Positions 500 through 11,748 of a stretch of DNA of 21,246 nt are shown piece after piece. How positions within the stretch are numbered: the stretch's first letter is position 1; each line of letters begins with the position of its first letter. The stretch spans positions 1-21,246 of IMG/VR virus record IMGVR_UViG_3300044701_002018. One strand, written 5' to 3'. Source of the stretch: a virus. The translations under genes were made by a program, and so were the position numbers. The notes beneath the pieces are model-generated. The model had not been told where the DNA came from. It did not search any database and was given only the letters and a program-made list of their open reading frames with translations.

Positions 500-1233
500 T
501 GGTTTACGAAAAAATGTATGAAAACAATGACGATACTGAAATAAAATCGCCTTTGTACAAAGATATTCTAGCTAAAATGCAACGAGATAAAAAGCGTTAT
601 TGGGCAGGGGACAACATAAGTGATTATATTAACGAGGTTGATAAAGAACGTCTTATTGACGAAGCAACTGCGGCATTTGAAACAGTACTCGACACACTGC
701 TAATTGATAGAGCAACTGATCCTAACAGTCAAGGCACTGCTCGTCGACTAGCTAAAATGTATTTCAATGAATTAATGTCAGGTAGATATGAAGCGACTCC
801 AAACGCAACTGCATTTCCGAATGACTCTGAAGGAAAATATGAAGGAATGCTTGTTGTCCGGTCCGAGCTCAAAAGTGTTTGCAGCCATCATCACCAGCCT
901 GTTTCTGGTGTGGCTTACATCGGTATTATTGCTGGCCCCAAACTTATTGGCCTATCAAAATATACCCGTATTGCTCAGTGGTGCGCCCGACGTGGAACGC
1001 TTCAGGAAGAACTTTGTATGGACATTGCACGAGAAATCGAATTTGCGACTGGAAGTGGGGATGTGGCTGTATACATACAAGCGGAACACGGATGCTGTAC
1101 AAATCGAGGGATTATGGCGCACAGTAGTCTTACCCAGACCACCGTACTAAAAGGTGCGTTTAAAACAGATTCGTCAACAAAGAAAGAGTTTTTTGACAAC
1201 GTTAAACTACAACAAGAGTTTGCACCAAGATAA
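499..1233 (+). CDS. folE: GTP cyclohydrolase I (FolE)
   Basis: Catalyses GTP to 7,8-dihydroneopterin triphosphate, the entry step shared by folate and 7-deazaguanine (queuosine/preQ0) synthesis. The 244-residue protein has the FolE signature: SVCSHHHQPVSG at 126-137 with zinc ligands C128 and H131, the IGLSKYTRIAQ block at 150-160, the LQEELCMDIA helix, and AEHGCCTNRG at 195-204, where C199 would be the third zinc ligand. The canonical CEHH reads CSHH here, one position off the usual Glu. About 55 extra N-terminal residues precede the core, which is within the range of the family. It starts on an ATG overlapping the upstream stop. Because queD and queE follow within 6 kb, the likely role is supplying the 7-deazaguanine pathway; folate supply together with the DHFR at the far end is an alternative. 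Confidence 0.95.
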   Translation: MVYEKMYENNDDTEIKSPLYKDILAKMQRDKKRYWAGDNISDYINEVDKERLIDEATAAFETVLDTLLIDRATDPNSQGTARRLAKMYFNELMSGRYEATPNATAFPNDSEGKYEGMLVVRSELKSVCSHHHQPVSGVAYIGIIAGPKLIGLSKYTRIAQWCARRGTLQEELCMDIAREIEFATGSGDVAVYIQAEHGCCTNRGIMAHSSLTQTTVLKGAFKTDSSTKKEFFDNVKLQQEFAPR

Positions 1234-1243
1234 GGAGATTAAA

Positions 1244-1921
1244 ATGGAATACGCTTTACCTTACAAAACTGCTTCAGAGATTAACACAGCAATGGGCCGT
1301 GTGTATGGCAACATGGCGTTGGCCGTGTTCACTAGTATGATTGTTAGTGCATTAGTATCATCTAACACTGCCTTAATGGCCTTTTTGTTTACAGGCATTA
1401 TGAAATGGATAGTTATATTTGCACCATTGGCTGCTATATTTGCAGTAGGGTTTGTGTTAGGTTCAAATCCTAGTCGCTCAGTGGCACAATTATGCCTACA
1501 CGGTTTTGCAGCATTAATGGGCATTAGCTTCGCTACAATTTTTGTTGTTTATACCACAGCCAGTATTGCCAGTGCGTTCTTTGGTGCCGGCATCTTGTTC
1601 TGTGTAATGAGCGTGTACGGTTATTTCACTAAACAGAGTCTTGACAGTATAGGAAAGTACCTAATAGTAGCCTTAATCGCCATTATTATCACAAGCATCG
1701 TAAATATCTTTATCGGATCGTCTGCTCTTCAAACAGTAATCAGTGCCGCAGCAGTTGTAATCTTTTTAGGCCTGACTGCATATGACACTCAAAAGATTAG
1801 AGAACAGATTATGGAATCGGATGGTCCAGCGGTTGAAGTAATGGGTGCTCTAACACTATATTTAGATTTCATTAACTTGTTTCTAAGTTTGCTTCAGCTA
1901 TTTGGTATAAAGAAAGAATAA
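1244..1921 (+). CDS. Bax inhibitor-1 (BI-1/YccA/YbhL) family membrane protein
   Basis: A 225-residue, very hydrophobic protein with about seven membrane segments. The C-terminal signature is characteristic of bacterial BI-1 proteins: LTAYDTQKIREQ followed by GALTLYLDFINLFLSLLQLFG just before the end. Bacterial homologues such as YccA interact with the FtsH membrane protease and others act as pH-sensitive calcium leak channels; which applies here is unknown. The start chosen is the ATG at 1244, preceded at good distance by AAGGAGA; an in-frame start further upstream would overlap folE deeply and lacks a ribosome site. It probably belongs to the folE transcript. In a phage such a protein could protect membrane proteins from host FtsH or affect lysis timing, but that is inference. 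Confidence 0.9.
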   Translation: MEYALPYKTASEINTAMGRVYGNMALAVFTSMIVSALVSSNTALMAFLFTGIMKWIVIFAPLAAIFAVGFVLGSNPSRSVAQLCLHGFAALMGISFATIFVVYTTASIASAFFGAGILFCVMSVYGYFTKQSLDSIGKYLIVALIAIIITSIVNIFIGSSALQTVISAAAVVIFLGLTAYDTQKIREQIMESDGPAVEVMGALTLYLDFINLFLSLLQLFGIKKE

Positions 1922-1926
1922 CATGA

Positions 1927-2151
1927 ATGTCCGACGATGATGATGTAAAAGTAAATTTAGACAAGTTTAAACCAAAAAAACCTAAATTAGCAGTACCAAC
2001 AGAATTTTTAGATAATGCTAAAAGTTACGATGATAAGTTGATGTTAGTAAAGTTTTTAACCGAAAAGGAAAAAAACCGAGTTGTATTGATAGTTAAAAAA
2101 ATGATAGCACAAGGTATTCGAGAATCTAACCAAAAGAAAGGACTGAAATGA
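1927..2151 (+). CDS. Small charged protein of unknown function
   Basis: A 74-residue protein, acidic at the very N-terminus (SDDDDVK) and strongly basic afterwards, with a predicted helical C-terminal half (EKEKNRVVLIVKKMIAQGIRE). No family is recognised. The stop overlaps the next start (ATGA at 2148), so it is probably translated with the following gene. An ATG three bases upstream, at 1924, is in the same frame and could also be used. No good Shine-Dalgarno sequence is visible. Confidence 0.6.
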   Translation: MSDDDDVKVNLDKFKPKKPKLAVPTEFLDNAKSYDDKLMLVKFLTEKEKNRVVLIVKKMIAQGIRESNQKKGLK

Positions 2152-2336
2152 AAATCGAAGACAAACTTAGTAAAATAGGTGACAGTTTTACTGTAAATAT
2201 GTATGACAATGGCTTTATGTTTGAAGCCAGCGGACGTACCGAAGACGGCGACTGGGCCGGCACTAAAATTCTATGTAATACGTTGGATGAATTGGTGCAA
2301 CTTATCAAAGAAGCATCGGCAATGGAAAGAGATTAA
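2148..2336 (+). CDS. Small conserved-looking phage protein of unknown function
   Basis: A 62-residue acidic protein starting on the ATGA overlap with the upstream gene; AAAGGACTG precedes the start as a ribosome site. The pattern MYDNGFMFEASGRTEDGDW followed by a C-terminal helix resembles small beta-beta-alpha proteins common in T4-like phages, but no function can be assigned. It is the last gene before the terminator at 2356. Confidence 0.65.
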   Translation: MKIEDKLSKIGDSFTVNMYDNGFMFEASGRTEDGDWAGTKILCNTLDELVQLIKEASAMERD

Positions 2337-2343
2337 ATATCTT

Positions 2344-2372
2344 TTGACTTTAAATAAAAAAAGTTGTATATT
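2344..2372 (+). promoter_or_regulatory. Sigma70-like promoter overlapping a terminator
   Basis: TTGACT (2344-2349) and TATATT (2367-2372) are separated by exactly 17 bases, each one mismatch from consensus. The -10 box lies inside the left arm of the terminator hairpin. Transcription would begin near 2379, downstream of the left arm, so the new transcript would not form the terminator. It is well placed to drive the S8 protease gene. Confidence 0.6.
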
Positions 2373-2392
2373 TTCTATACAACTTTTTTTTT
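2356..2392. terminator. Strong rho-independent terminator, probably bidirectional
   Basis: A perfect 15-base stem (2356-2370 pairing with 2376-2390) with loop TTTTC. The right arm ends in a run of T and the left arm begins with a run of A, so it can terminate transcription from either side. It closes the folE-BI-1 transcript. Confidence 0.9.
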
Positions 2393-2402
2393 GAATAAAT
2401 CT

Positions 2403-4337
2403 ATGCGTAAACTTATTTTTTTACTAAGTTTTTTTGCTGCCTCTTTTTCTCACTCACAAACAGCAGAATATCAAGCTGGAAGATTTCTATCTCCGATCAA
2501 TGCCAACTCGGCTTATCTGCGTGGTTACACTGGAGCCGGTAGTACCATACTTATAATTGATACCGGTATTAATTTTAACAGTCCAGAATTTAAAAACAAA
2601 ATACTCAACAGTATTGACTATACCGGCACAGGAATTTTGGATAAAGTAGGACACGGTTCAAATGTTGCTTCTATTGCTGCCGCAGCGCAAGATGGTAAAG
2701 GAATGATGGGAGTAGCATATGATGCCAATTTGTTAATTGCCAAAGTCACTAATAATAATTCATATAATTTTAGCAATGCCTTGAGAGCAATACAATGGGG
2801 AGGATCACAAGGTGCCATTGTTGCCAACATAAGCGCCAATGTTGTTTCTAATGCAAATTATATAAGCTACACCAAACAGATAAGTCCGGGCGTTTATCAA
2901 AATACTCATCCGGTATACGGTGGCACCAACTATTATAATCTAGAAAAACCCAGTGATTGGGCCAATGCACTAAAGGGTAATAATATTATTTTGGTAGTAT
3001 CGGCTGGCAATTCTGGCCGAGCCTATCCGGACAATCCGGCAACATTTGCAACTGCTACAGATGCTGACGGAAATCTCATGCTAGGCGGACGGATGCTGAT
3101 TGTGGGCAATTGGGATCAATTGCGTAACAGACCTCACATTACTTCTAATCTTGCTGGTACTATATGTAAAAATGTTGCCAACGGCGCTTGCCAGGATCAA
3201 TATCGTATTAGTGATTTTTATATTATGGCCCCAGGAACAGCCAACTATGGCGTTTCTGCAAACGGATATGTTGGTATGACTGGTACTAGCCAGGCAACAC
3301 CTGTTGTAGCAGGTGCGGTTGCAATTATAAATCAAATGTGGCCAAATATGAAACCCGAGAATATTGTTCAACTGTTGTTAGTTACAGCAAATAAAAATAT
3401 TCCAAATTACAATCCAGCCACAATGGGACAGGGACTTCTTGATCTTAATCGTGCCACACAACCAATTGGGGTACTAACTATTCCAACTACCGGCCGTGTT
3501 GGTGTCGGTGGTGTGATTGCTACGCCGCTGATAACCAGTGGTAGTGCAAGTCTCGCCAAAATAAGTTCTGTAATGGTACTTGATTCTTTTGAAAGAGATT
3601 TTTACACAACCGGTCGTTCGTTGACTATTGCACAACCTGTTACTGAGTTTAATCCTGCTCAGTCTTCAATGCCTTATCGCACACATAATAGTTATTCACT
3701 GTTTAATAATTACATCGATTCTGTTGCATCAAAAGCACAAAATATTGAAATGAAAATGTATTTTGATGGACGGTCAAACAATCATATGATTGAGATTGGG
3801 CGCAAATGGGAATACGATAAAATTGATTTTTCATTTTCAGGCGGTGGCTTTCAGGAAACAGGAAGCTGGTTAGGATCAAGCGGAACATCTAACAGTTATA
3901 CCACATATAGCCATATGTCAATTACAAATCATCTATCAGATAGCGATAGAATTTTTGGAACAGTTGGTTATGGTGTAACATCTGCTAACTTTAATAACGG
4001 ACTGTTCACCTTGGGATCAGTACAAAGTTATACCTGGAATGTTGGCGTAGAACACGACCTAGATGACAAACAAACTGTGGGATTAATGTTAAATCAACCC
4101 GTTACTGTTGTAAACACATCAACAACAGTAAACGTTCCAGTTGGAATGGATTCTCAAGGTGCTATTCAATTTAATCAGCAACGTGTTAGTCTGACTCCGG
4201 ATGTAAAAGAACTTCGACTTGGCGCTTATTATAAAACCAATAATGTTGTTGGATACGTTGAACGTAGACAAAATTACCTTGGACAAAGTGGTATATACAA
4301 TGATGTAGTAGGTGTAGTAGCTAACTTTTCTTTCTAA
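2403..4337 (+). CDS. Secreted subtilisin-family (S8) serine protease with autotransporter-like C-terminal barrel
   Basis: The 644-residue protein starts with a signal peptide (MRKLIFLLSFFAASFSHSQ). Residues about 38-350 form a subtilase domain with a full catalytic set: D53 in IIDTGI, H84 in GHGSNVAS, oxyanion N203 in SAGNSG, and S296 in GTSQATPVVAGA. Residues about 445-644 are rich in alternating hydrophobic/polar strands and aromatic residues and end in VVGVVANFSF, the terminal-Phe pattern recognised by the outer-membrane assembly machinery. This is the layout of an S8 autotransporter of Gram-negative bacteria, although the barrel part is shorter and less typical than the usual 12-strand domain. 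An in-frame ATG at 2364 lies in the terminator; 2403 is preferred because it gives a clean signal peptide. No Shine-Dalgarno is visible. It has its own promoter and is unlike its neighbours, suggesting acquisition from a bacterium. The target of the protease is unknown. Confidence 0.9.
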   Translation: MRKLIFLLSFFAASFSHSQTAEYQAGRFLSPINANSAYLRGYTGAGSTILIIDTGINFNSPEFKNKILNSIDYTGTGILDKVGHGSNVASIAAAAQDGKGMMGVAYDANLLIAKVTNNNSYNFSNALRAIQWGGSQGAIVANISANVVSNANYISYTKQISPGVYQNTHPVYGGTNYYNLEKPSDWANALKGNNIILVVSAGNSGRAYPDNPATFATATDADGNLMLGGRMLIVGNWDQLRNRPHITSNLAGTICKNVANGACQDQYRISDFYIMAPGTANYGVSANGYVGMTGTSQATPVVAGAVAIINQMWPNMKPENIVQLLLVTANKNIPNYNPATMGQGLLDLNRATQPIGVLTIPTTGRVGVGGVIATPLITSGSASLAKISSVMVLDSFERDFYTTGRSLTIAQPVTEFNPAQSSMPYRTHNSYSLFNNYIDSVASKAQNIEMKMYFDGRSNNHMIEIGRKWEYDKIDFSFSGGGFQETGSWLGSSGTSNSYTTYSHMSITNHLSDSDRIFGTVGYGVTSANFNNGLFTLGSVQSYTWNVGVEHDLDDKQTVGLMLNQPVTVVNTSTTVNVPVGMDSQGAIQFNQQRVSLTPDVKELRLGAYYKTNNVVGYVERRQNYLGQSGIYNDVVGVVANFSF

Positions 4338-4339
4338 CA

Positions 4340-4894
4340 ATGAGCAAAATTTATTACAGTGATAAACAAATTCGTAATGCATTGCATTCGATAATTCGCA
4401 GCATTAACAACGACCATTGGCGTCCTGATTATATTGTAGGACTCAATCGTGGCGGCCTTGCTCCTGCTGTAATGTTAAGTCATTACTTAAACATTCCTAT
4501 GCATACACTGAATGTTAGTTTAAGAGATGGTGCAGACATTGATTGCGAAAGTAATTTATGGATGGCCGAAGATGCATTTGGTTATGTACCTTCTGAACAA
4601 AGAGGTGAATCGGGAACACAAGTAGATCCTGCAAATCGTAAAAATATATTAATAGTAGACGATATTAACGATACTGGTGCAACTATGAATTGGATCAAAC
4701 AAGATTGGCAATCTAGTTGTTTGCCCAATCATGACGCTTGGAATCGAGTCTGGAACAATAACGTACGGTTTGCTGTATTAGTAAATAACGAAGACAGTAA
4801 ATTTAAAGACATTGACTATTCAGGTATTAATATCAATAAATTAGAGAACCCCGTTTGGATTGTTTTTCCTTGGGAAGCTTGGTGGGAACAATGA
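4340..4894 (+). CDS. Phosphoribosyltransferase-fold protein (type I)
   Basis: A 184-residue protein with the type I phosphoribosyltransferase core: a beta-alpha start with PDYIVGLNRGGLAPAVMLSHYL at about 29-50, and the PRPP-binding loop ILIVDDINDTGATM at 103-116. Near the end is NPVWIVFPWEAWW, resembling the C-terminal 'ivfPWE' segment of hypoxanthine/xanthine-guanine type enzymes. Such enzymes join a purine base to PRPP; the phage substrate is unknown. A region of about 35 residues (65-100) rich in acidic residues separates the two blocks, as a hood might. It starts two bases after the stop of the protease gene and overlaps the next gene by ATGA. In this context a base-salvage role linked to modified guanine is possible but not shown. 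Confidence 0.85.
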   Translation: MSKIYYSDKQIRNALHSIIRSINNDHWRPDYIVGLNRGGLAPAVMLSHYLNIPMHTLNVSLRDGADIDCESNLWMAEDAFGYVPSEQRGESGTQVDPANRKNILIVDDINDTGATMNWIKQDWQSSCLPNHDAWNRVWNNNVRFAVLVNNEDSKFKDIDYSGININKLENPVWIVFPWEAWWEQ

Positions 4895-5226
4895 TAGCTC
4901 TACCACCTGGTTGTACTGTAACTTATGCAGTTTGGGTCGATGTTGACAAGTTAACCAACGAAATGGTTGAATGGTACGGTATGATCGGCGGCGTGGTATG
5001 GAAGGATAAATGGTATGATATGCGTGGCAGAGAACAATCTGTACACTATGTAAGCTACGGTAAGGGCAAACGCTGCCATCATCATCAGAATGGTAACGGT
5101 GGTACAAGACTGCACTTTCACGGCGATGATGCTAGTACCGCTAGTATGTTTATTATAAAATTCTTTGATCATATTATAGCAAACAACTTACAAGAACAGA
5201 TGGAACGGTTGGCTCAGGATGCATAA
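4891..5226 (+). CDS. His-rich conserved phage protein of unknown function
   Basis: A 111-residue protein. The ATG at 4891 overlaps the stop of the phosphoribosyltransferase gene (ATGA) and is preferred over an earlier in-frame ATG at 4855. The central part carries a striking cluster, KRCHHHQNGNGGTRLHFHGDD, with one Cys, five His and two Asp, which could be a metal site. No enzyme family is recognised. The start overlap suggests it is co-translated with the phosphoribosyltransferase. Confidence 0.75.
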   Translation: MIALPPGCTVTYAVWVDVDKLTNEMVEWYGMIGGVVWKDKWYDMRGREQSVHYVSYGKGKRCHHHQNGNGGTRLHFHGDDASTASMFIIKFFDHIIANNLQEQMERLAQDA

Positions 5227-5234
5227 ATATTTTT

Positions 5235-5414
5235 ATGTGGACAATAGTAATAATGCTACACGCAGTATCGCCCAATTTGCCTCCGTCAAAAGGATCTATA
5301 GTTTTTCCAACAACAGGATACGAAGAATGTCTGAAAACACGAGATGCAGTCATACGAGGCTGGGCATCAGATCGGTATCGTGTAACAGCTAACTGTATTC
5401 TAATGAAGCAATAA
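5235..5414 (+). CDS. Small two-cysteine protein with hydrophobic N-terminus
   Basis: A 59-residue open frame (ATG at 5235, TAA at 5412) fills an otherwise unexplained gap. It begins with a short hydrophobic stretch (MWTIVIMLHA) and has two cysteines, C32 in YEECLKTRDAV and C54 in TANCILMKQ at the very end. The same plan (hydrophobic start, S/Y-x-x-C-x-x-A/T-R, final C-I/V-x-x-x-K) is seen in the 68-residue product at 13787. The two may belong to one family of small exported proteins with a disulfide. No Shine-Dalgarno is obvious; CATAAATA lies just upstream at 5222. Confidence 0.55.
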   Translation: MWTIVIMLHAVSPNLPPSKGSIVFPTTGYEECLKTRDAVIRGWASDRYRVTANCILMKQ

Positions 5415-5419
5415 CAAAA

Positions 5420-5427
5420 TATAAATA
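5420..5427 (+). promoter_or_regulatory. T4-like late promoter motif TATAAATA
   Basis: An exact match to the TATAAATA core used by T4-like late transcription, in the 98-base gap upstream of queD. Related CATAAATA octamers occur at 5222-5229 and 12697-12704. In AT-rich DNA such matches arise by chance, so this is only a candidate. Confidence 0.35.
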
Positions 5428-5464
5428 AATTTCTACACAGCGGCCTTTCTGGCATTCATCCCGC

Positions 5465-5494
5465 TTTACAAATTCTGCAAGCCTATGCTAAAAT
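5465..5494 (+). promoter_or_regulatory. Sigma70-like promoter upstream of queD
   Basis: TTTACA (5465-5470) and TAAAAT (5489-5494), spacing 18, one mismatch each from consensus. Transcription would begin near 5501, just before the AGGAG ribosome site of queD. Confidence 0.45.
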
Positions 5495-5504
5495 TTAACA
5501 TAGG
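5482..5504 (+). promoter_or_regulatory. Inverted repeat overlapping the queD ribosome binding site
   Basis: CCTATG (5482-5487) pairs with CATAGG (5499-5504) around an 11-base AT-rich loop. The right arm includes the first bases of the AGGAG ribosome site of queD, so in a longer transcript the hairpin could hide it. It overlaps the promoter candidate at 5465-5494, so the repeat may instead be an operator or chance. Confidence 0.35.
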
Positions 5505-5512
5505 AGAATAGC

Positions 5513-6091
5513 ATGACAACAATTAATGTTGATGTAGGGAATCAACCACCCGAACAAGCAGTTGCAACTTTAGAACAACTTGGTGCATTTGGTAATCAAC
5601 CAAGAACTTACAAATATACCAGTACCAAAGAGTATCACGACGCCTTTCCTTGTGCATATCGGCAATGGCGAGCCGACAGCCACTGCAACCTAATTCACGG
5701 TTACTCATTTTCAATGAAGTTCTACTTTGGAACCAATGATCTAGATGTACGTAACTGGGCTGCTGACTACGGTGGCCTGAAAGAACTTAAAAGAGTATTA
5801 GAAGATCAGTTTGACCATACCTTGATCGTAGCACAAGATGATCCCGAACTAGAAACATTCAAATTGCTACAAGCCAAGAACATGGCCAAGATTGTGGTGT
5901 TGCCCCGACTAGGTTGCGAAGGACTTGCAGATCAACTATACAAATATGTGAATGGTGTATACATTCCAGATATGTGGGGGCCTAGCGAAGCGGCTAGACT
6001 CTGGTGCTATAGAGTAGAAGTACGAGAAACACAAGCAAATATGGCTTTCCGCGAAGGTCATCGTGAGTGGAATGAGGATCTATTTGTATGA
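5513..6091 (+). CDS. queD: QueD-like 6-carboxytetrahydropterin synthase, divergent zinc site
   Basis: QueD converts dihydroneopterin triphosphate (the FolE product) to 6-carboxytetrahydropterin. The 192-residue protein has the family framework: SHCNLIHGYSF at 56-66, the WAADYGGLKELKRVLEDQFDHT block at 82-103 (D101-H102), the GCEGLADQLYKYV segment, and VEVRET with E172. Compared with E. coli QueD, the catalytic Cys (C58) and the first His of HGH (H62) are kept, but the His of the AAHR motif is Tyr (Y49 in CAYRQW) and the second His of HGH is Tyr (Y64). Two of three expected zinc ligands are thus changed. The N-terminal about 30 residues are extra. It starts after AGGAG with a promoter candidate close upstream, and overlaps the next gene by ATGA. 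It could be a clade with another metal site, or an altered activity. Confidence 0.85.
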   Translation: MTTINVDVGNQPPEQAVATLEQLGAFGNQPRTYKYTSTKEYHDAFPCAYRQWRADSHCNLIHGYSFSMKFYFGTNDLDVRNWAADYGGLKELKRVLEDQFDHTLIVAQDDPELETFKLLQAKNMAKIVVLPRLGCEGLADQLYKYVNGVYIPDMWGPSEAARLWCYRVEVRETQANMAFREGHREWNEDLFV

Positions 6092-6300
6092 ACGAAAGAC
6101 TTCAAGAACTTGCTACACAAGCCGGATATAAAGATTTTAATTATGCTATTATTGCTCATAAATTTGCCGATCTTATTATTCAGGAGTGTATTAAAATAGT
6201 TCATGAGCAAGATAAAATTCCCGAAGGATTCTTGTATCCAAAATCTGCACACATACACGAATTGGCAATCAAACAACATTTTGGAATAGACAATGAGTAA
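6088..6300 (+). CDS. Small conserved phage protein of unknown function
   Basis: A 70-residue, mostly helical protein (MNERLQELATQAGY...FADLIIQECIKIV). Short proteins with this 'NERiqeLa.qAg...faelIv.eC' pattern are frequent in T4-like phages and have no known function. It is sandwiched by overlaps between queD (ATGA) and queE (8 bases), so it is translated with the two deazaguanine genes, though nothing in it indicates an enzyme. Confidence 0.75.
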   Translation: MNERLQELATQAGYKDFNYAIIAHKFADLIIQECIKIVHEQDKIPEGFLYPKSAHIHELAIKQHFGIDNE

Positions 6301-7150
6301 AATCAAAGTAGCAGAATTATTTTATAGCATACAAGGCGAAGGACGCTATATGGGTGTCCCTAGTGTTTTCTTACGCACGTTTGGTTGCAACTTTAAATGT
6401 GCCGGCTTCGGTATGCCAAGAGGTGAATTGAGTCGAGAAGCAGAGTCGGTTGATCCTTCTAAATACGCTCGTTACGAAGAACTTCCTCTGGTGAGTACAG
6501 GATGTGACAGTTATGCGTCGTGGGATCCAAGATTTAAAGATCTAAGTCCTGTACTAACTTCAGATGCTATTGTAGAACGCATTATGGAAATTCTTCCTTT
6601 TGGTAAATGGAAGGATGAGCATCTTGTTATTACAGGAGGCGAGCCTCTATTAGGTTGGCAGCGTAGTTACGAGGATCTATTAAACCATCCTCGTATGCAA
6701 AAGTTAAAAGAAATTACTTTTGAAACTAATGGCACCCAGGAGTTATCTAAAGAGTTTAGACATTACTTGTTAGATTGGACACTAAATCCAAAATTTGGTC
6801 GTAGAGGATACAATGCTCTTACATTTAGTGTAAGTGCTAAACTTCCGGCTAGTGGTGAGCTATGGACGGATGCTATTAGACCAGACATTGTTCGTAGTTA
6901 CGAAGAATTAGGTCATACCTATCTCAAGTTTGTTGTAGCCACAGAACAAGATGTTGAAGATGCATTAAAAGCTCGAGATCAATATCGAAATGCAGGATTT
7001 AAAGGTGATGTGTATCTTATGCCAGTAGGTGGTGTAGAAAGTGTTTATTCCTTGAATAATCGTGCAGTAGCATTACTAGCTATGAAACACGGACTGCGTT
7101 ATAGCGATAGATTGCAAGTACCGTTGTTTAAAAATGAATGGGGAACTTAA
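6293..7150 (+). CDS. queE: QueE-like radical SAM 7-carboxy-7-deazaguanine synthase, with insertion in the cluster motif
   Basis: QueE turns 6-carboxytetrahydropterin into 7-carboxy-7-deazaguanine using S-adenosylmethionine and a 4Fe-4S cluster. The 285-residue protein opens with VAELFYSIQGEGRYMGVPSVF, the standard QueE start, then FGCNFKCAGFG at 30-40. The usual CX3CX2C is interrupted: C32 and C36 are present, but the third cysteine appears to be C71 in STGCDSYASW, after about 34 residues, since the Asp following it matches the usual WCDT. ITGGEPLL at 113-120 is the SAM-binding segment and FETNGT at 143-148 is the expected next block. A displaced third cysteine is known in some QueE enzymes (CX14CX2C in Burkholderia), so activity is plausible. 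The stop overlaps the next start by one base. Confidence 0.9.
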   Translation: MSKIKVAELFYSIQGEGRYMGVPSVFLRTFGCNFKCAGFGMPRGELSREAESVDPSKYARYEELPLVSTGCDSYASWDPRFKDLSPVLTSDAIVERIMEILPFGKWKDEHLVITGGEPLLGWQRSYEDLLNHPRMQKLKEITFETNGTQELSKEFRHYLLDWTLNPKFGRRGYNALTFSVSAKLPASGELWTDAIRPDIVRSYEELGHTYLKFVVATEQDVEDALKARDQYRNAGFKGDVYLMPVGGVESVYSLNNRAVALLAMKHGLRYSDRLQVPLFKNEWGT

Positions 7151-7356
7151 TGACCGAAACAAGAGCAAGGACTTTAACAAGGATGTTTACATATAGAATA
7201 ACCGCTTGGTTATTTACTATATTTTGGACCTATTTGTTTACTGGAGATATAGGAAGTGCTACCGGATTTGCAACTGCCTTGCATATTCTATTAAGTATCG
7301 ATTATTATATCCACGAACGAATCTGGTTAAAAATAAAATGGGGGAAAACAGAATAA
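7150..7356 (+). CDS. DUF2061-like small membrane protein
   Basis: A 68-residue protein with two hydrophobic segments, beginning with RTLTRMFTYRITAWLFT and ending with SIDYYIHERIWLKIKWG. The Arg-rich start, the Thr-Gly-Asp turn between the two segments and the 'yYiHERiW' end match the DUF2061 family of predicted membrane proteins. Its function is unknown. The ATG at 7150 overlaps the queE stop (TAATG) and is chosen over an in-frame ATG at 7138 inside queE. It shares one base with the next start. Confidence 0.75.
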   Translation: MTETRARTLTRMFTYRITAWLFTIFWTYLFTGDIGSATGFATALHILLSIDYYIHERIWLKIKWGKTE

Positions 7357-7769
7357 TGTACTTAGATGGAATATTTGATATGTTTGAATGGTTAAAAAAG
7401 AAAAAGGACCAACCCAAAAATGAAAAGTCCGAGGATCAAGTTAAATCAAAATCTGCTAAAGATTTAGCCACAGAAGCAGGAGAACCTTACGTAAGTGTAA
7501 TTAAGGTAGACCTAGATGCTGATGATGTTGGTAATGGTGCATTTGAACTCGATTGGAACGAAATCTTTATTGCAAGATTGGTCAAGGCCGGCTTTATGCA
7601 AAAGAAAGAAGATACCGAAGCAGAAATTGTGGATCGGTGGTTTCAAAGTGTTTGCAGAAATATTCTCAATGAGAACTATGAACAATGGGAAGCCAATCAG
7701 CCCGTTGATGCTAGGCCTCGTCGCGTGGATCGTAATGACTTAGGAAACGGAAGAACTGAAATATCGTGA
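7356..7769 (+). CDS. Conserved phage protein of unknown function
   Basis: A 137-residue protein: a Lys-rich N-terminal stretch (about 14-40), then EPYVSVIKVDLDADDVGNGAFELDWN and a helical C-terminal half with FIARLVKAGF and IVDRWFQSVCRNIL. The 'G.FELDWN..F...L...G' plus 'VdrWFqsVCRNi' pattern is recalled from cyanophage-type T4-like genomes, where it is unassigned. The ATG at 7356 overlaps the upstream stop (TAATG); earlier starts would lie inside the membrane-protein gene. The stop overlaps the GTG start of the next gene. Confidence 0.8.
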   Translation: MYLDGIFDMFEWLKKKKDQPKNEKSEDQVKSKSAKDLATEAGEPYVSVIKVDLDADDVGNGAFELDWNEIFIARLVKAGFMQKKEDTEAEIVDRWFQSVCRNILNENYEQWEANQPVDARPRRVDRNDLGNGRTEIS

Positions 7770-8698
7770 TATTGATTGTTGGAAGTACATCCAGATTAAC
7801 TGCCGAATTCTCTGTAATTCACAGTATAGGCCCTTCGACGTTGTTTCAGGGGCAAGTAATTGACGAATCACTGATATATCACACCTCTCTTGCTGATTGT
7901 CGAAATTTAGAACAATTTTTAACAAAATTTAAATTAATTTATTGGGCAAACTCTGCTATTTCTGAGTTTAACAATTATCAAGATTATTTCGAAACATTAT
8001 ATCTATTAAAATCGCATGGAAATGTAATTGGTATAGACAATGTAGATCCGTATAATATAAAAAATTTTTCTGCAATTAAAAATGACGAATCAAACATAGT
8101 CTTCTTTGGATGTAGTCATACTGCCGGCGGACATCATCATACTAAAGACACCGAATATGTAAATTTACTATCAACACATTTCAATCAACCAATCTTAAAT
8201 CTAGCCGAAAGTGGCAAAGGTAATTTTAGATCTTTTGACCTTTTTAATAATCTAGAATTTTACAAAAATCAAAAGGTTATTTTACAGTTAACTGATTTTG
8301 CACGATTGAAATTTTATCCGGACAGTTTGCCTACTACTGTTTTTAAAGAATCACAGCTTTACAAGATAAAAAACAGATCTTATTTTGATGTTTACAACGA
8401 TAAACAATTGATCTACATGACATTAACTAGACTAGATAGTGTTATAAAATATAGTAGATCATTTGGGTTAAATTTTGTATTTTTTTATCTTGGGGATACA
8501 CCAAATTTTAGCAACATACCAGAGAACGATTTTTATAAAAAAACAGTAGAGTATTACTTACTGGATTATAAAGAATATATACCAAATATTCTACAAAGAA
8601 ATGTTGATAGAGGCACGGACAATTTACATTATGGTCCTCTTAGTCACAAAATTTGGGCCAACGAAATTATAAATAAAATTCAAACTTTATATCCATGA
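7766..8698 (+). CDS. SGNH-hydrolase-like protein
   Basis: A 310-residue protein. An N-terminal section of about 105 residues is of unknown type. It is followed by VFFGCSHTAGG at 112-122, matching SGNH block I (G-x-S-x-T), and near the end DNLHYGPLSHKIWA (D285, H288) matching the block V Asp-x-x-His dyad. SGNH proteins are esterases, lipases or carbohydrate deacetylases; the substrate here cannot be told. The start is GTG, overlapping the preceding stop as GTGA. Its base composition is markedly AT-rich compared with neighbours. The next gene also encodes an SGNH-like protein and overlaps it by ATGA, so the two are likely co-translated. Confidence 0.65.
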   Translation: MILIVGSTSRLTAEFSVIHSIGPSTLFQGQVIDESLIYHTSLADCRNLEQFLTKFKLIYWANSAISEFNNYQDYFETLYLLKSHGNVIGIDNVDPYNIKNFSAIKNDESNIVFFGCSHTAGGHHHTKDTEYVNLLSTHFNQPILNLAESGKGNFRSFDLFNNLEFYKNQKVILQLTDFARLKFYPDSLPTTVFKESQLYKIKNRSYFDVYNDKQLIYMTLTRLDSVIKYSRSFGLNFVFFYLGDTPNFSNIPENDFYKKTVEYYLLDYKEYIPNILQRNVDRGTDNLHYGPLSHKIWANEIINKIQTLYP

Positions 8699-9399
8699 TC
8701 TTATACGTAAACGGAGATAGCCATAGTGCAGCAGCCGAGGCAGTTAATCCATACTGTTTTGCTGAAGATGATCCTTTATATAGGGCACTAGGACGAATCC
8801 CACATCCTGACAACGAACGTGCAAGTTATGGTTGCAATATTGCAAACCAGTTGTATGCTATATTACATTGTGATGCCGAATCGGCCAGCAGTAATGCAAG
8901 AATAATTCGAACTACTAAGAATTATCTCAATGAGCACAAGCCCGATATTATTATCATTGGATGGGCAACTTGGGAGAGAGAAGAATGGTTTCATAATAAC
9001 ACTTACTATCAAGTTACCGCCGGCGGGCAAGATCGACTACCGCCCGAATTAAATGAAGCTTATAAAAAATGGGTAATAGATACTGCTAATCATATAGCAA
9101 AAAACGAATTATCCAATCACGACACAATATGGAATTTTCATTGCTATTTGCAAGATCTAAATATACCTCATTTCTTCTTCAACACTTATAATTGTTTTGC
9201 ACATATTCGATTGAACGATTTGCCTAAAAAAGATTGGGGCGATTGTTATCTTTATCCTTATTTGGAAGAGTTTACTTATTATAATTGGTTAAAATCAAAT
9301 AATTTCCAAACGGTCAATCCAAGATCATATCATTTTAGGGCAGATGCTCATAGAAAATGGGCAGAATTTCTTTTGCCTTACTTGACCAAGTTGTTATAA
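8695..9399 (+). CDS. Second SGNH-like phage protein
   Basis: A 234-residue protein that opens with ILYVNGDSHSAAAEAV, a block I-like G-D-S motif, continues with DIIIIGWATWEREEW at about 84-98, and ends with FRADAHRKWAEFLLPYL, where D-A-H fits the C-terminal Asp-x-His dyad of SGNH enzymes. Proteins with the 'NGDSHsAaAEAV' start are recalled from T4-like cyanophages as unassigned. The substrate is unknown; acyl or acetyl groups on host glycans would be natural candidates. It starts in the ATGA overlap with the first SGNH-like gene. Confidence 0.7.
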   Translation: MILYVNGDSHSAAAEAVNPYCFAEDDPLYRALGRIPHPDNERASYGCNIANQLYAILHCDAESASSNARIIRTTKNYLNEHKPDIIIIGWATWEREEWFHNNTYYQVTAGGQDRLPPELNEAYKKWVIDTANHIAKNELSNHDTIWNFHCYLQDLNIPHFFFNTYNCFAHIRLNDLPKKDWGDCYLYPYLEEFTYYNWLKSNNFQTVNPRSYHFRADAHRKWAEFLLPYLTKLL

Positions 9400-9400
9400 T
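9372..9400 (+). promoter_or_regulatory. Possible promoter upstream of the 5'-3' exonuclease gene
   Basis: A perfect TATAAT (9395-9400) preceded by GTTG, as in other promoters of the window. The -35 region is weak (TTTGCC at 9372-9377, spacing 17). Transcription would begin near 9407, ten bases before the start codon. Confidence 0.45.
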
Positions 9401-9416
9401 ATGCTACTATTAATAC

Positions 9417-10406
9417 ATGAGATATCTAATTGTAGACACAGCCAATACATTCTTTCGTGCTCGCCATTCTGCAAGCCGTCAATCGGACACCTGGGATAAG
9501 TTAGGGTTCGCAATTCATGTTACCTTGGCGTCAGTTAATAAAGCGTGGAGAGAACATCAAGCCGATCACGTCGTATTCTGTTTGGAGGGACGGAGCTGGC
9601 GCAAAGATTTCTATGAACCCTACAAGAAGAACCGTGCAGTCGCGAGAGCTGCGCTCACGGAAGCGGAAGCTGAAGAGGACCGACTTTTTTGGGAAACTTT
9701 CGATAATCTTAAGACTTTTCTTGCTGAGAAAACTAATTGCACCGTGCTCCAACACAGCGAGCTCGAAGCAGATGATCTTATCTCTGGTTGGATCTGGAAC
9801 CATCCCAATGACAGTCATATCATTGTTTCTTCCGACACTGACTTTCACCAGTTACTGGCGCCGAATGTACAACAATATAATGGTGTTGCCGACGAGCTTC
9901 ATACACTAGAAGGTATCTTTGATAAAAAGGGTAAACTAGTAATTGACAAGAAAACCAAAGCGCCAAAAGTCATACCTAATCCAAAATGGATCCTGTTTGA
10001 GAAGTGTATGCGCGGAGATCCGACAGACAATGTGTTTTCCGCCTATCCGGGTGTTAGGACCAAAGGTTCCAAGAACAAAATTGGTCTCACTGAAGCTTTT
10101 GCTGACCGGGATAAAAAAGGATTTGATTGGAACAACCTTATGCTTCAAAGATGGACAGATCATAACGGTCTGGAGCATAGAGTATTAGACGATTACAATC
10201 GCAATGTTACTCTAGTAGATCTTACTGCACAGCCCGAGGATATCAAAGCAAAGATTAATGAAACTGTACACACAGGTGCTGTAAAGAAAAGTAGACCAAT
10301 GGTAGGTGCTCAGTTTCTCAAGTTCTGTGGCAAGTACGAACTTAACAGACTTAGTGAACATTCATCAAATTATGCAGAATTATTAAGTGCAGAGTATCCC
10401 GAATGA
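9417..10406 (+). CDS. 5'-3' exonuclease / RNase H (T4 Rnh-like, FEN family)
   Basis: A 329-residue member of the T4 RNase H/flap-nuclease family, which removes RNA primers and 5' flaps during phage DNA replication. Acidic metal-binding residues fall in the expected blocks: D7 in LIVDTAN, EADD at 117-120, SSDTDF at 138-143 with D140 and D142, and RGDPTDN at 199-205 with D201 and D204, followed by the AYPGVRTKGS helix-hairpin segment. The 'GRSWRKDFYEPYKKNR' arch-base region at 58-73 with conserved Arg and Lys is also present. Its length is close to T4 Rnh (about 305). It starts 17 bases after a TATAAT box and overlaps the next small gene by ATGA. Confidence 0.92.
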   Translation: MRYLIVDTANTFFRARHSASRQSDTWDKLGFAIHVTLASVNKAWREHQADHVVFCLEGRSWRKDFYEPYKKNRAVARAALTEAEAEEDRLFWETFDNLKTFLAEKTNCTVLQHSELEADDLISGWIWNHPNDSHIIVSSDTDFHQLLAPNVQQYNGVADELHTLEGIFDKKGKLVIDKKTKAPKVIPNPKWILFEKCMRGDPTDNVFSAYPGVRTKGSKNKIGLTEAFADRDKKGFDWNNLMLQRWTDHNGLEHRVLDDYNRNVTLVDLTAQPEDIKAKINETVHTGAVKKSRPMVGAQFLKFCGKYELNRLSEHSSNYAELLSAEYPE

Positions 10407-10540
10407 TTACATTACTTGACTTGCAACTGTGGATCTTATTTCAAGGCATGATTACTGCCGTAGCCTGGCGGTTCTTGGGATTTGGTGGCCTGTTTGGTAG
10501 TTTGTTAGGTGCATTTCTTTACCTCTCAATTTTCAGATGA
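10403..10540 (+). CDS. 45-residue membrane protein of unknown function
   Basis: A short frame (ATG at 10403, TGA at 10538) that fills the gap between the nuclease and the next gene exactly, overlapping both by ATGA. The product is very hydrophobic, with FLGFGGLFGSLLGAFLYLSIF forming one glycine-rich membrane segment after a Trp/Gln-containing N-terminal part that may form another. The perfect overlaps on both sides support it as a real gene. Function unknown; a holin-like role is conceivable but unsupported. Confidence 0.65.
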   Translation: MITLLDLQLWILFQGMITAVAWRFLGFGGLFGSLLGAFLYLSIFR

Positions 10541-10764
10541 CATATACTGCACACAAATCCAATGTCCGGACTATTAAACAAAACGATCCTGACTTTTATA
10601 TTCATGATGGGTTACAGACTGTAGGCCGTGCTGTGTTGACTATTCATGCCGAATGTCCTGAAAGTCACGCTATTTACATACACCAAGCATTAAGTAGAGG
10701 ATATATTTCATTGACCAGTAATGTAAAAGACAATGAACTGGTATGGGAGACTTTGAGTAAATGA
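10537..10764 (+). CDS. Small protein of unknown function
   Basis: A 75-residue soluble-looking protein. The pattern (GRAVLTIHAECPESHAIYIHQAL then GYISLTSNV) suggests a beta-alpha-beta fold, but no family is recognised. It overlaps genes on both sides by ATGA, within a tightly coupled run from the nuclease to 12478. Confidence 0.7.
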   Translation: MTYTAHKSNVRTIKQNDPDFYIHDGLQTVGRAVLTIHAECPESHAIYIHQALSRGYISLTSNVKDNELVWETLSK

Positions 10765-11135
10765 CCACGTGGCTAATATTAGCCTTGCTATTCGTTAAAC
10801 ACTTTCTAGCAGACTTCTGTTGGCAAAGTGATCGTATGATCCGAGACAAAGGGCATCTTGGTAGATTGGGCGGATTGCAACACGCCGGTCTCCACGGTGC
10901 CTTGACCTATGTTATTTTAATGCATTTTTTAGGTCTACAAGCTTGCATTATGCTGGCCGTGTTTGATGCTACTATACATTATTTCATCGACTTCTTGCAT
11001 CGTCGAGCCACCGTTCGACTAAGCACAGATTCGGATGGCTTTTGGATGTGGATCGGTATTGATCAATTTTTGCATACACTAGTTTATCTAATAATAGGTT
11101 TCGTAGTTTCAATTCTAACAATAGAATACATATGA
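10761..11135 (+). CDS. DUF3307-like membrane protein
   Basis: A 124-residue protein with about four membrane segments. LFVKHFLADFCWQSDRMIRDKG near the start, QHAGLHG at about 50-56, IHYFIDFLHR at about 72-81 and IDQFLHTLVYLI near 99-110 match DUF3307, whose conserved His and Asp residues lie at membrane ends ('H.laDF.lQ', 'H...iD', 'DQ.lH'). The family is widespread in bacteria and phages with no proven function. It overlaps neighbours by four bases on both sides. Confidence 0.8.
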   Translation: MTTWLILALLFVKHFLADFCWQSDRMIRDKGHLGRLGGLQHAGLHGALTYVILMHFLGLQACIMLAVFDATIHYFIDFLHRRATVRLSTDSDGFWMWIGIDQFLHTLVYLIIGFVVSILTIEYI

Positions 11136-11476
11136 TTAAAACTTTAAGCAGTGGTTCGCAACACATTACAGTAAGCGGGGGTTACCCAAATAACCCTCCT
11201 ATCAGTCCAGGCGCCGTGGGTGCAGGTATGGTACGATACAATCCAAACATACAACAAATGGAAGTGTATGATGGTGTAAGTTGGTACGGAATAAACAATC
11301 ATGCTACGGTTGATCTAGGTATGACCAGCAAGGAAGTTATTGAGTGGGCGCACAAAAAAATGCTAGAGGAACAAAAGTTACAAGAACTTATGGAACGGCA
11401 TCCAGGTCTAAAAGAATTAAAAGATAAATTTGAAATGATGCGAGTATTATGTTTAGAAGAGGAGAAATCGCAATGA
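11132..11476 (+). CDS. Conserved phage protein of unknown function, tail-fibre-like N-terminus
   Basis: A 114-residue protein in two parts: residues 1-55 are Gly/Pro/Ser-rich with GAGMVRYNPNIQQMEVYDGVSW, the repeat-like 'G.vRYN...q.EvyDG..W' seen in phage tail and virion proteins; residues 60-114 are charged and helical, with SKEVIEWAHKKMLEEQKLQEL. The combination may be a small virion or assembly factor, but this is inference. The final bases overlap the next start by ATGA. Confidence 0.75.
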   Translation: MIKTLSSGSQHITVSGGYPNNPPISPGAVGAGMVRYNPNIQQMEVYDGVSWYGINNHATVDLGMTSKEVIEWAHKKMLEEQKLQELMERHPGLKELKDKFEMMRVLCLEEEKSQ

Positions 11477-11748
11477 AATGGTTAAAAAGACGACTTCGTG
11501 ATTGGTTAAACAGTGAGGATGAAATTAGATTGCAGCGAGCCACAGTAGTAGAAAGAGATAGATCAGCGCCTGCACAAAACGGTATGAACTTTTGTTTGTA
11601 TCAAGCAGTCGGTGGCCACATTCTTGAATCTCGCACTTATAATCAAAAGACCGATCGCACCGACGGAACACTATATATGATTCACGACGACGAAGATTTT
11701 GCCAGGCAAGTGGCACAGGCTATTATGTTGGAACAAATGAAACTATGA
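11473..11748 (+). CDS. Small conserved phage protein, paralogous to the next gene
   Basis: A 91-residue protein. The ATG at 11473 overlaps the upstream stop; an earlier in-frame start at 11449 is inside that gene. After a basic N-terminus (KWLKRRLRDWL) it has FCLYQAVGGHILESRTYN, then TLYMIHDDEDFARQVAQAI. The next gene has the same order of elements (HGGYVIKVSTGYG, MYVIDDSKDLGQELGKIV), so they are probably related copies of one small fold. Function unknown. Confidence 0.75.
   Translation: MKWLKRRLRDWLNSEDEIRLQRATVVERDRSAPAQNGMNFCLYQAVGGHILESRTYNQKTDRTDGTLYMIHDDEDFARQVAQAIMLEQMKL

Follow-up and report, generated by a model that had tools for sequence, protein, structure and literature searches.

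The subtilisin-like autotransporters NalP, SphB1, EprS and AasP process surface proteins, and for two of them, NalP and SphB1, the targets belong to the very cell that makes the protease (PMC9289746, PMC9977779). Together with Ssp they belong to Group 15 of type Va, whose members share a common layout of a signal peptide (with a lipobox in some), an N-terminal S8 protease domain and a C-terminal outer-membrane beta domain. Type Va proteins are recognised by an N-terminal signal peptide, a 12-stranded barrel ending in an aromatic residue and homology of the C-terminal beta domain to PF03797, and Group 15 is further recognised by a beta-helix stalk of about 200 aa. When we searched the literature for autotransporters or outer-membrane proteases encoded by phages, nothing specific emerged; the word 'protease' is absent from a review of superinfection exclusion (PMC11436027), as is the word 'phage' from a review of autotransporters (PMC9289746).

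The window analysed here is a 21,246-bp virus record from IMG/VR (IMGVR_UViG_3300044701_002018), linear and probably a fragment. It encodes an S8 protease that resembles the Group 15 proteins in layout (Table 1). Unlike them, it is phage-encoded, comprises 644 aa, lacks the stalk, has a beta domain that is not of the PF03797 type and possesses its own host-type promoter. Its reading frame is counted from an ATG, and an alternative TTG start is possible at position 2364.

Table 1. Features of the protease gene and its immediate surroundings (positions in the window).
Feature	Position	Strand	Details	Basis
Sigma-70-type promoter, TTGACT-17-TATATT	2344..2372	+	10/12 matches; 30 nt upstream of ATG	
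Inverted repeat with A-run/T-run	2356..2391	+	perfect 15-bp arms; overlaps -10	
S8 protease, predicted to end in an outer-membrane beta region	2403..4337	+	whole ORF, 644 aa	
Signal peptide	2403..2456	+	about residues 1-18; cleavage near SHS-Q	sequence
Subtilase catalytic domain	2532..3422	+	residues 44-340; triad D53/H84/S296, oxyanion N203	
Linker	3492..3710	+	about residues 364-436; conserved ...VMVLDSFERDF... motif; short helices just N-terminal of beta region	
C-terminal beta region	3717..4334	+	residues 439-644; 13 strand segments; last residue F644	
Phosphoribosyltransferase gene	4340..4894	+	2 nt downstream of protease	

Pfam recognises a single domain in the protein, Peptidase_S8 (PF00082, E=1.8e-30, above the cut-off), spanning residues 44-340. 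The first-pass annotation of this DNA had pointed to an intact D53/H84/S296 triad with N203; these residues are indeed at those positions and are invariant in 43/43 aligned relatives, so that the domain, the Asp-His-Ser triad and the oxyanion Asn of peptidase family S8 are all present. The more confident of two AlphaFold2 (AF2) models agrees, with a Foldseek TM score of 0.90 to Bacillus lentus subtilisin. Values of dN/dS, where computable, were 0.05-0.16 in both halves of the gene, which supports purifying selection, as judged from sequence comparison. The subtilase fold is shared by proteases of other phages, namely Bacillus phages SP-15 and Goe3 and Agrobacterium phage Atu_ph07, whose likeness to the query is confined to the S8 domain.

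The N-terminal sequence MRKLIFLLSFFAASFSHSQ has the look of a Sec signal peptide, in agreement with the first-pass annotation, and a heuristic scan gave the same result. Export signals are conserved among the relatives: a simple heuristic scan, rather than a trained predictor, found them in 82 of 85 unique sequences with a complete 5' end, three of these 82 being of the lipoprotein type, and in the remaining three a signal peptide appears once a GTG start is allowed. The cysteines fit this picture. The window protein has only two, C255 and C263, which are candidates for a disulfide, and all 43 aligned relatives have an even number (39 with two, four with four), both columns being cysteine in 41/43; among other long ORFs of the same loci, odd and even counts were balanced (111 vs 109). 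Such an even count fits a disulfide that would form outside the cytoplasm.

Between the protease domain and the beta region lies a linker of about 75 residues (364-438) that AF2 models mostly as loop and short helices. With eight aligned sequences, the AF2 model reached a mean pLDDT of only 55, with C-terminal blocks at 75-90; with 43 sequences, the mean pLDDT rose to 88.2 (pTM 0.78) and 13 strand segments were placed between residues 439 and 640. The first-pass annotation had put a barrel at residues 445-644, and modelling bears out outer-membrane-type beta strands over 439-640. Foldseek searches with the first model retrieved subtilisins and, with weaker scores, the outer-membrane barrels V. 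cholerae OmpT, TodX, OmpG, FapF and EspP. With the second model, subtilisins led the PDB matches, the passenger of the Ssp autotransporter ranked 13th and no barrel stood among the best 50, so the likeness to solved barrels derives from the lower-confidence first model. Of the type Va barrel, then, we find 13 modelled strand segments, an aromatic end and barrel matches from that first model; a topology of 12 barrel strands and one pore-crossing segment could be read off the DSSP string alone, and we do not claim it as a result. An alternating-hydrophobicity test of the strands was inconsistent, being clear in only some of them. Of 86 unique relatives with a complete 3' end, 82 have an aromatic last residue (F, W or Y), against a background of 101/731; in the four exceptions F is the last residue but one. 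That residues 439-644 form an outer-membrane-type all-beta region ending in F644 is thus a well-supported prediction, as is the outer-membrane location of the protein.

In five relatives (L051, L057, L058, L077 and L070) the match to the query is wholly or mainly in the S8 domain, and the differing C-terminal region still ends in F. This suggests that beta domains may have been exchanged beneath the same protease.

How close is this protein to true autotransporters? Among PDB sequences the protein matches 8e7f best, which is the Serratia subtilisin-like autotransporter Ssp, and in NCBIfam residues 19-358 align below threshold with the autotransporter EprS (64 bits vs a cut-off of 1700). Pfam and hhalign both speak against homology of the beta domain to PF03797. 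None of the 43 relatives matches PF03797 at E<=10, whereas an EprS-like positive control (L079) scored 210 bits and also carried a PATR repeat, which was not recognised in the phage protein. A comparison of the C-terminal profile with a bacterial autotransporter profile by hhalign gave a probability below 2%, the latter profile being modest (of 23 barrel sequences, some were unusable, six because of frame errors, and a few more overran the barrel). The beta-helix stalk of Group 15 is likewise missing, its place being taken by the short linker. The autotransporter-like layout proposed at first pass therefore stands as regards the signal peptide, triad, paired cysteines, aromatic end and modelled beta region, and falls as regards PF03797 membership. 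On the evidence, the phage protein is minimal and autotransporter-like in layout, and lies outside the sequence criterion for membership of the class.

The missing stalk and missing PF03797 homology would also suit an inward-facing arrangement, in which the beta domain is an ordinary anchor and the protease stays on the periplasmic side, where it would cleave periplasmic proteins or those of the envelope-stress response. We consider this improbable, because the order of passenger, linker and C-terminal beta domain matches that of autotransporters and three relatives carry lipoprotein signals like those of NalP and SphB1.

The gene was originally described as flanked by its own promoter and a strong terminator. 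The promoter is borne out by the relatives, in that a strong sigma-70-like promoter lies within 110 nt upstream of 26/42 protease genes vs 89/757 other ORFs of the same loci. The enrichment is large (odds ratio 12, p=2e-13; shuffles 0.6%), with p-values that overstate it because relatives are not independent and the ORF starts of the controls are mechanical; the promoter rule was fixed, but the comparison was made after the pattern had been noticed by eye. Once relatives more than 55% identical were removed, 15/24 protease genes kept the promoter, and some protease lineages are without a recognisable one. The downstream terminator, in contrast, is unsupported, since only 2 nt separate the protease stop at 4337 from the next ATG and a scan of 1900-4900 returned no terminator-like site, using a search that needs G-C stem pairs and that also misses the A/T-rich hairpin upstream of the protease. 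The phosphoribosyltransferase is probably on the same transcript as the protease. The upstream hairpin (-13.8 kcal/mol, z -4.9, with A7/T9 runs), the sole terminator-like hairpin near the gene, more likely terminates the upstream transcription unit or acts as an operator.

A promoter of this type implies, as far as sequence can tell, transcription by the host RNA polymerase, which would be compatible with early expression without proving it. This bears on whether the same exported protease might instead aid lysis, weakening the envelope or freeing progeny from surface material late in infection. Such a role would suit the outer-membrane location, and proteolysis could conceivably free virions from debris, but the host-type promoter found in most relatives and the placement of the gene in a DNA-metabolism block argue against late expression. 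With no lysis gene recognised near the protease either, we regard a lytic function as unlikely.

The block in question is conserved. Thirty-eight contigs have a neighbourhood like that of the window, with the order kept in 31/31 upstream and 32/34 downstream where the flank suffices. Upstream lie genes for DNA polymerase, a glycosyltransferase-like protein, a nucleotide-sugar epimerase, a DegT-like protein and FolE; downstream follow the phosphoribosyltransferase, QueD, QueE, a 5'-3' exonuclease, a MoxR-like ATPase and a VWA protein. The first-pass statement that the protease has no link to phage DNA metabolism consequently survives for function and fails for position. In a second type of neighbourhood, the protease follows a helicase and precedes a primase and DnaB-like helicase; its proteases nest inside the first group in the tree, which suggests that the gene may have been transferred between phage lineages.

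Several neighbours were also noted. Just upstream of the protease, 1154-1921 (+) encodes a membrane protein of the Bax-inhibitor-1/YccA type (PF01027, E 9e-51) that weakly resembles YccA, a modulator of FtsH, and has no PHROG match; L042, too, carries a homologue close to its protease. FolE, QueD and QueE homologues (499-1233, 5513-6091 and 6293-7150) make up a partial 7-deazaguanine pathway, as in DNA-modifying phages, and a related order is seen in PA5oct and Phosso. Positions 2-499 hold a fragment of a DegT-type sugar aminotransferase, and in relatives (e.g. L077:7491-9031) genes for a nucleotide-sugar epimerase and glycosyltransferase-like proteins adjoin the protease; the sugars concerned could be destined for DNA or for the cell surface. 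Two adjacent ORFs at 7766-9399 give weak matches, the first to GDSL/SGNH hydrolases and the second to DUF6071.

Enzymes that assist entry can be part of the phage particle, and the protease might be such a virion component that digests surface layers as infection begins. This is very improbable, as its signal peptide would send the protein to the envelope and not to assembling virions, and no structural gene was recognised adjoining the protease in the window.

Is the gene truly of phage origin? S8 autotransporters are bacterial, and one apparent phage match, in Pseudomonas phage Y5, resembles EprS DNA from a bacterium, so a bacterial gene introduced through misassembly had to be considered. 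The chance of this is negligible. An independent contig is 100% identical across 2583-11704, which, with the fixed gene order on both sides elsewhere, dispels the first-pass concern about an assembly join near 2340-4340. The GC content of the gene matches that of the window (39.2% vs 39.4%). In five of 44 records, of 62, 164, 178, 302 and 344 kb, a terminase (PF03237) shares the contig with the protease, most of the other records being shorter fragments. Furthermore, distances among the proteases correlate with distances among the QueE proteins (r 0.73), exonucleases (0.65) and DNA polymerases (0.71; Mantel tests, 0/2000 permutations).

The relatives are numerous among uncultivated viruses. 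A scan of IMG/VR with the 43-sequence alignment found confirmed relatives on at least 251 contigs, of which 80 were kept; earlier scans had yielded nine viral loci with the single protein and 76 with an eight-sequence alignment. The best BFVD match to the model is A0A6J5TBB6, a 'Peptidase S8/S53 domain containing protein' from an uncultured phage of the Caudovirales, which aligns over its full length (TM 0.80/0.76, 688 columns) at 27% identity and is annotated by its protease domain alone. Among 50,697 phage records searched by tblastn, no match covers 80% of the query, and the PA5oct and Phosso isolates, which share part of the gene order, gave no protease in the stretches read or among the tblastn matches. 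It thus appears that no cultured phage among those searched carries the full gene; its apparent absence from PA5oct and Phosso indicates that it is dispensable in some relatives.

Two apparent carriers were set aside. The best match among the phage records, Pseudomonas phage Y5 (L079, OQ572407.1), is an unverified record whose sequence is probably bacterial, because an EprS-like protein stands beside an ornithine-carbamoyltransferase-like gene; its region 51174-60160 resembles P. aeruginosa chromosomal DNA, with an EprS-like autotransporter and molybdopterin oxidoreductase-like and ornithine carbamoyltransferase-like genes. The match in a human-faecal 'Bacteriophage sp.' (L080) is a 288-aa protein that lacks a beta domain and is surrounded by genes of bacterial type.

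Bacterial counterparts exist and are rare. L078, from a gammaproteobacterial MAG, and L082 have a layout and C-terminal type like those of the phage protein, again without PF03797; the former sits in a bacterial polysaccharide-gene context and the latter is a lipoprotein. L078 was the only relative in a scan of genome_contigs, and profile searches of two genome samples gave 2/369 and 3/398 at E<=1e-40. In the tree, a phage-only group of 33 rows includes the window protein (support 80/96, below the starred level), and both bacterial proteins join other phage rows, which indicates that the protease has probably been exchanged between phages and bacteria.

Subtilases are classic secreted degradative enzymes and the relatives derive from many environmental metagenomes, which raises the idea of a 'public-goods' enzyme with which infected cells gain amino acids from extracellular protein or harm neighbouring cells or grazers. 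We think this quite unlikely, given that the conserved membrane-type C-terminus does not point to free secretion and the gene tracks phage core genes.

Taken together, sequence, comparison and model support a phage origin, an intact active site, export, an outer-membrane-type C-terminus and a promoter of its own. Our favoured reading, which we hold to be probable, is that this is a phage-encoded, outer-membrane-anchored subtilisin-like protease that trims the surface of the infected cell by means of a minimal layout like that of type V secretion. Transcription by the host RNA polymerase would start at the sigma-70 promoter of the gene itself, probably early in infection, and the signal peptide would direct the product to the host Sec system for export, with one disulfide forming outside the cytoplasm. 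The beta domain would then be inserted into the outer membrane via its terminal aromatic signal, leaving the subtilase domain outside the infected cell, either tethered or released. Since neither sequence nor profile links the beta domain to the PF03797 translocator, we infer that the passenger is exported via or together with it. Outward orientation, early timing and surface-protein substrates we likewise infer, along with a role in exclusion. Once outside, the protease may trim host surface proteins, which would most plausibly keep further phages from adsorbing and progeny from re-adsorbing; loss of the receptor for competitors and progeny would be the most economical benefit to the phage. 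Taken alone, the exclusion role is a tentative proposal, to which we give rather less than even weight. A broader proposal, that large phages widely employ self-anchoring surface proteases, expressed early from host-type promoters, for proteolytic superinfection exclusion with a translocator unrelated in sequence to PF03797, is possible and, in our view, more doubtful still.

To conclude, the protease is a conserved phage family, more than a single stray gene. If our reading is true, large phages equip the cells they infect with an active surface protease and so control the host surface, a mode of action that our literature searches did not find described, and the family would add a possible translocator without sequence relation to PF03797. 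It would also be common rather than a curiosity, given the number of related contigs in IMG/VR. The family suggests that these viruses may reshape the surface of their host during infection.
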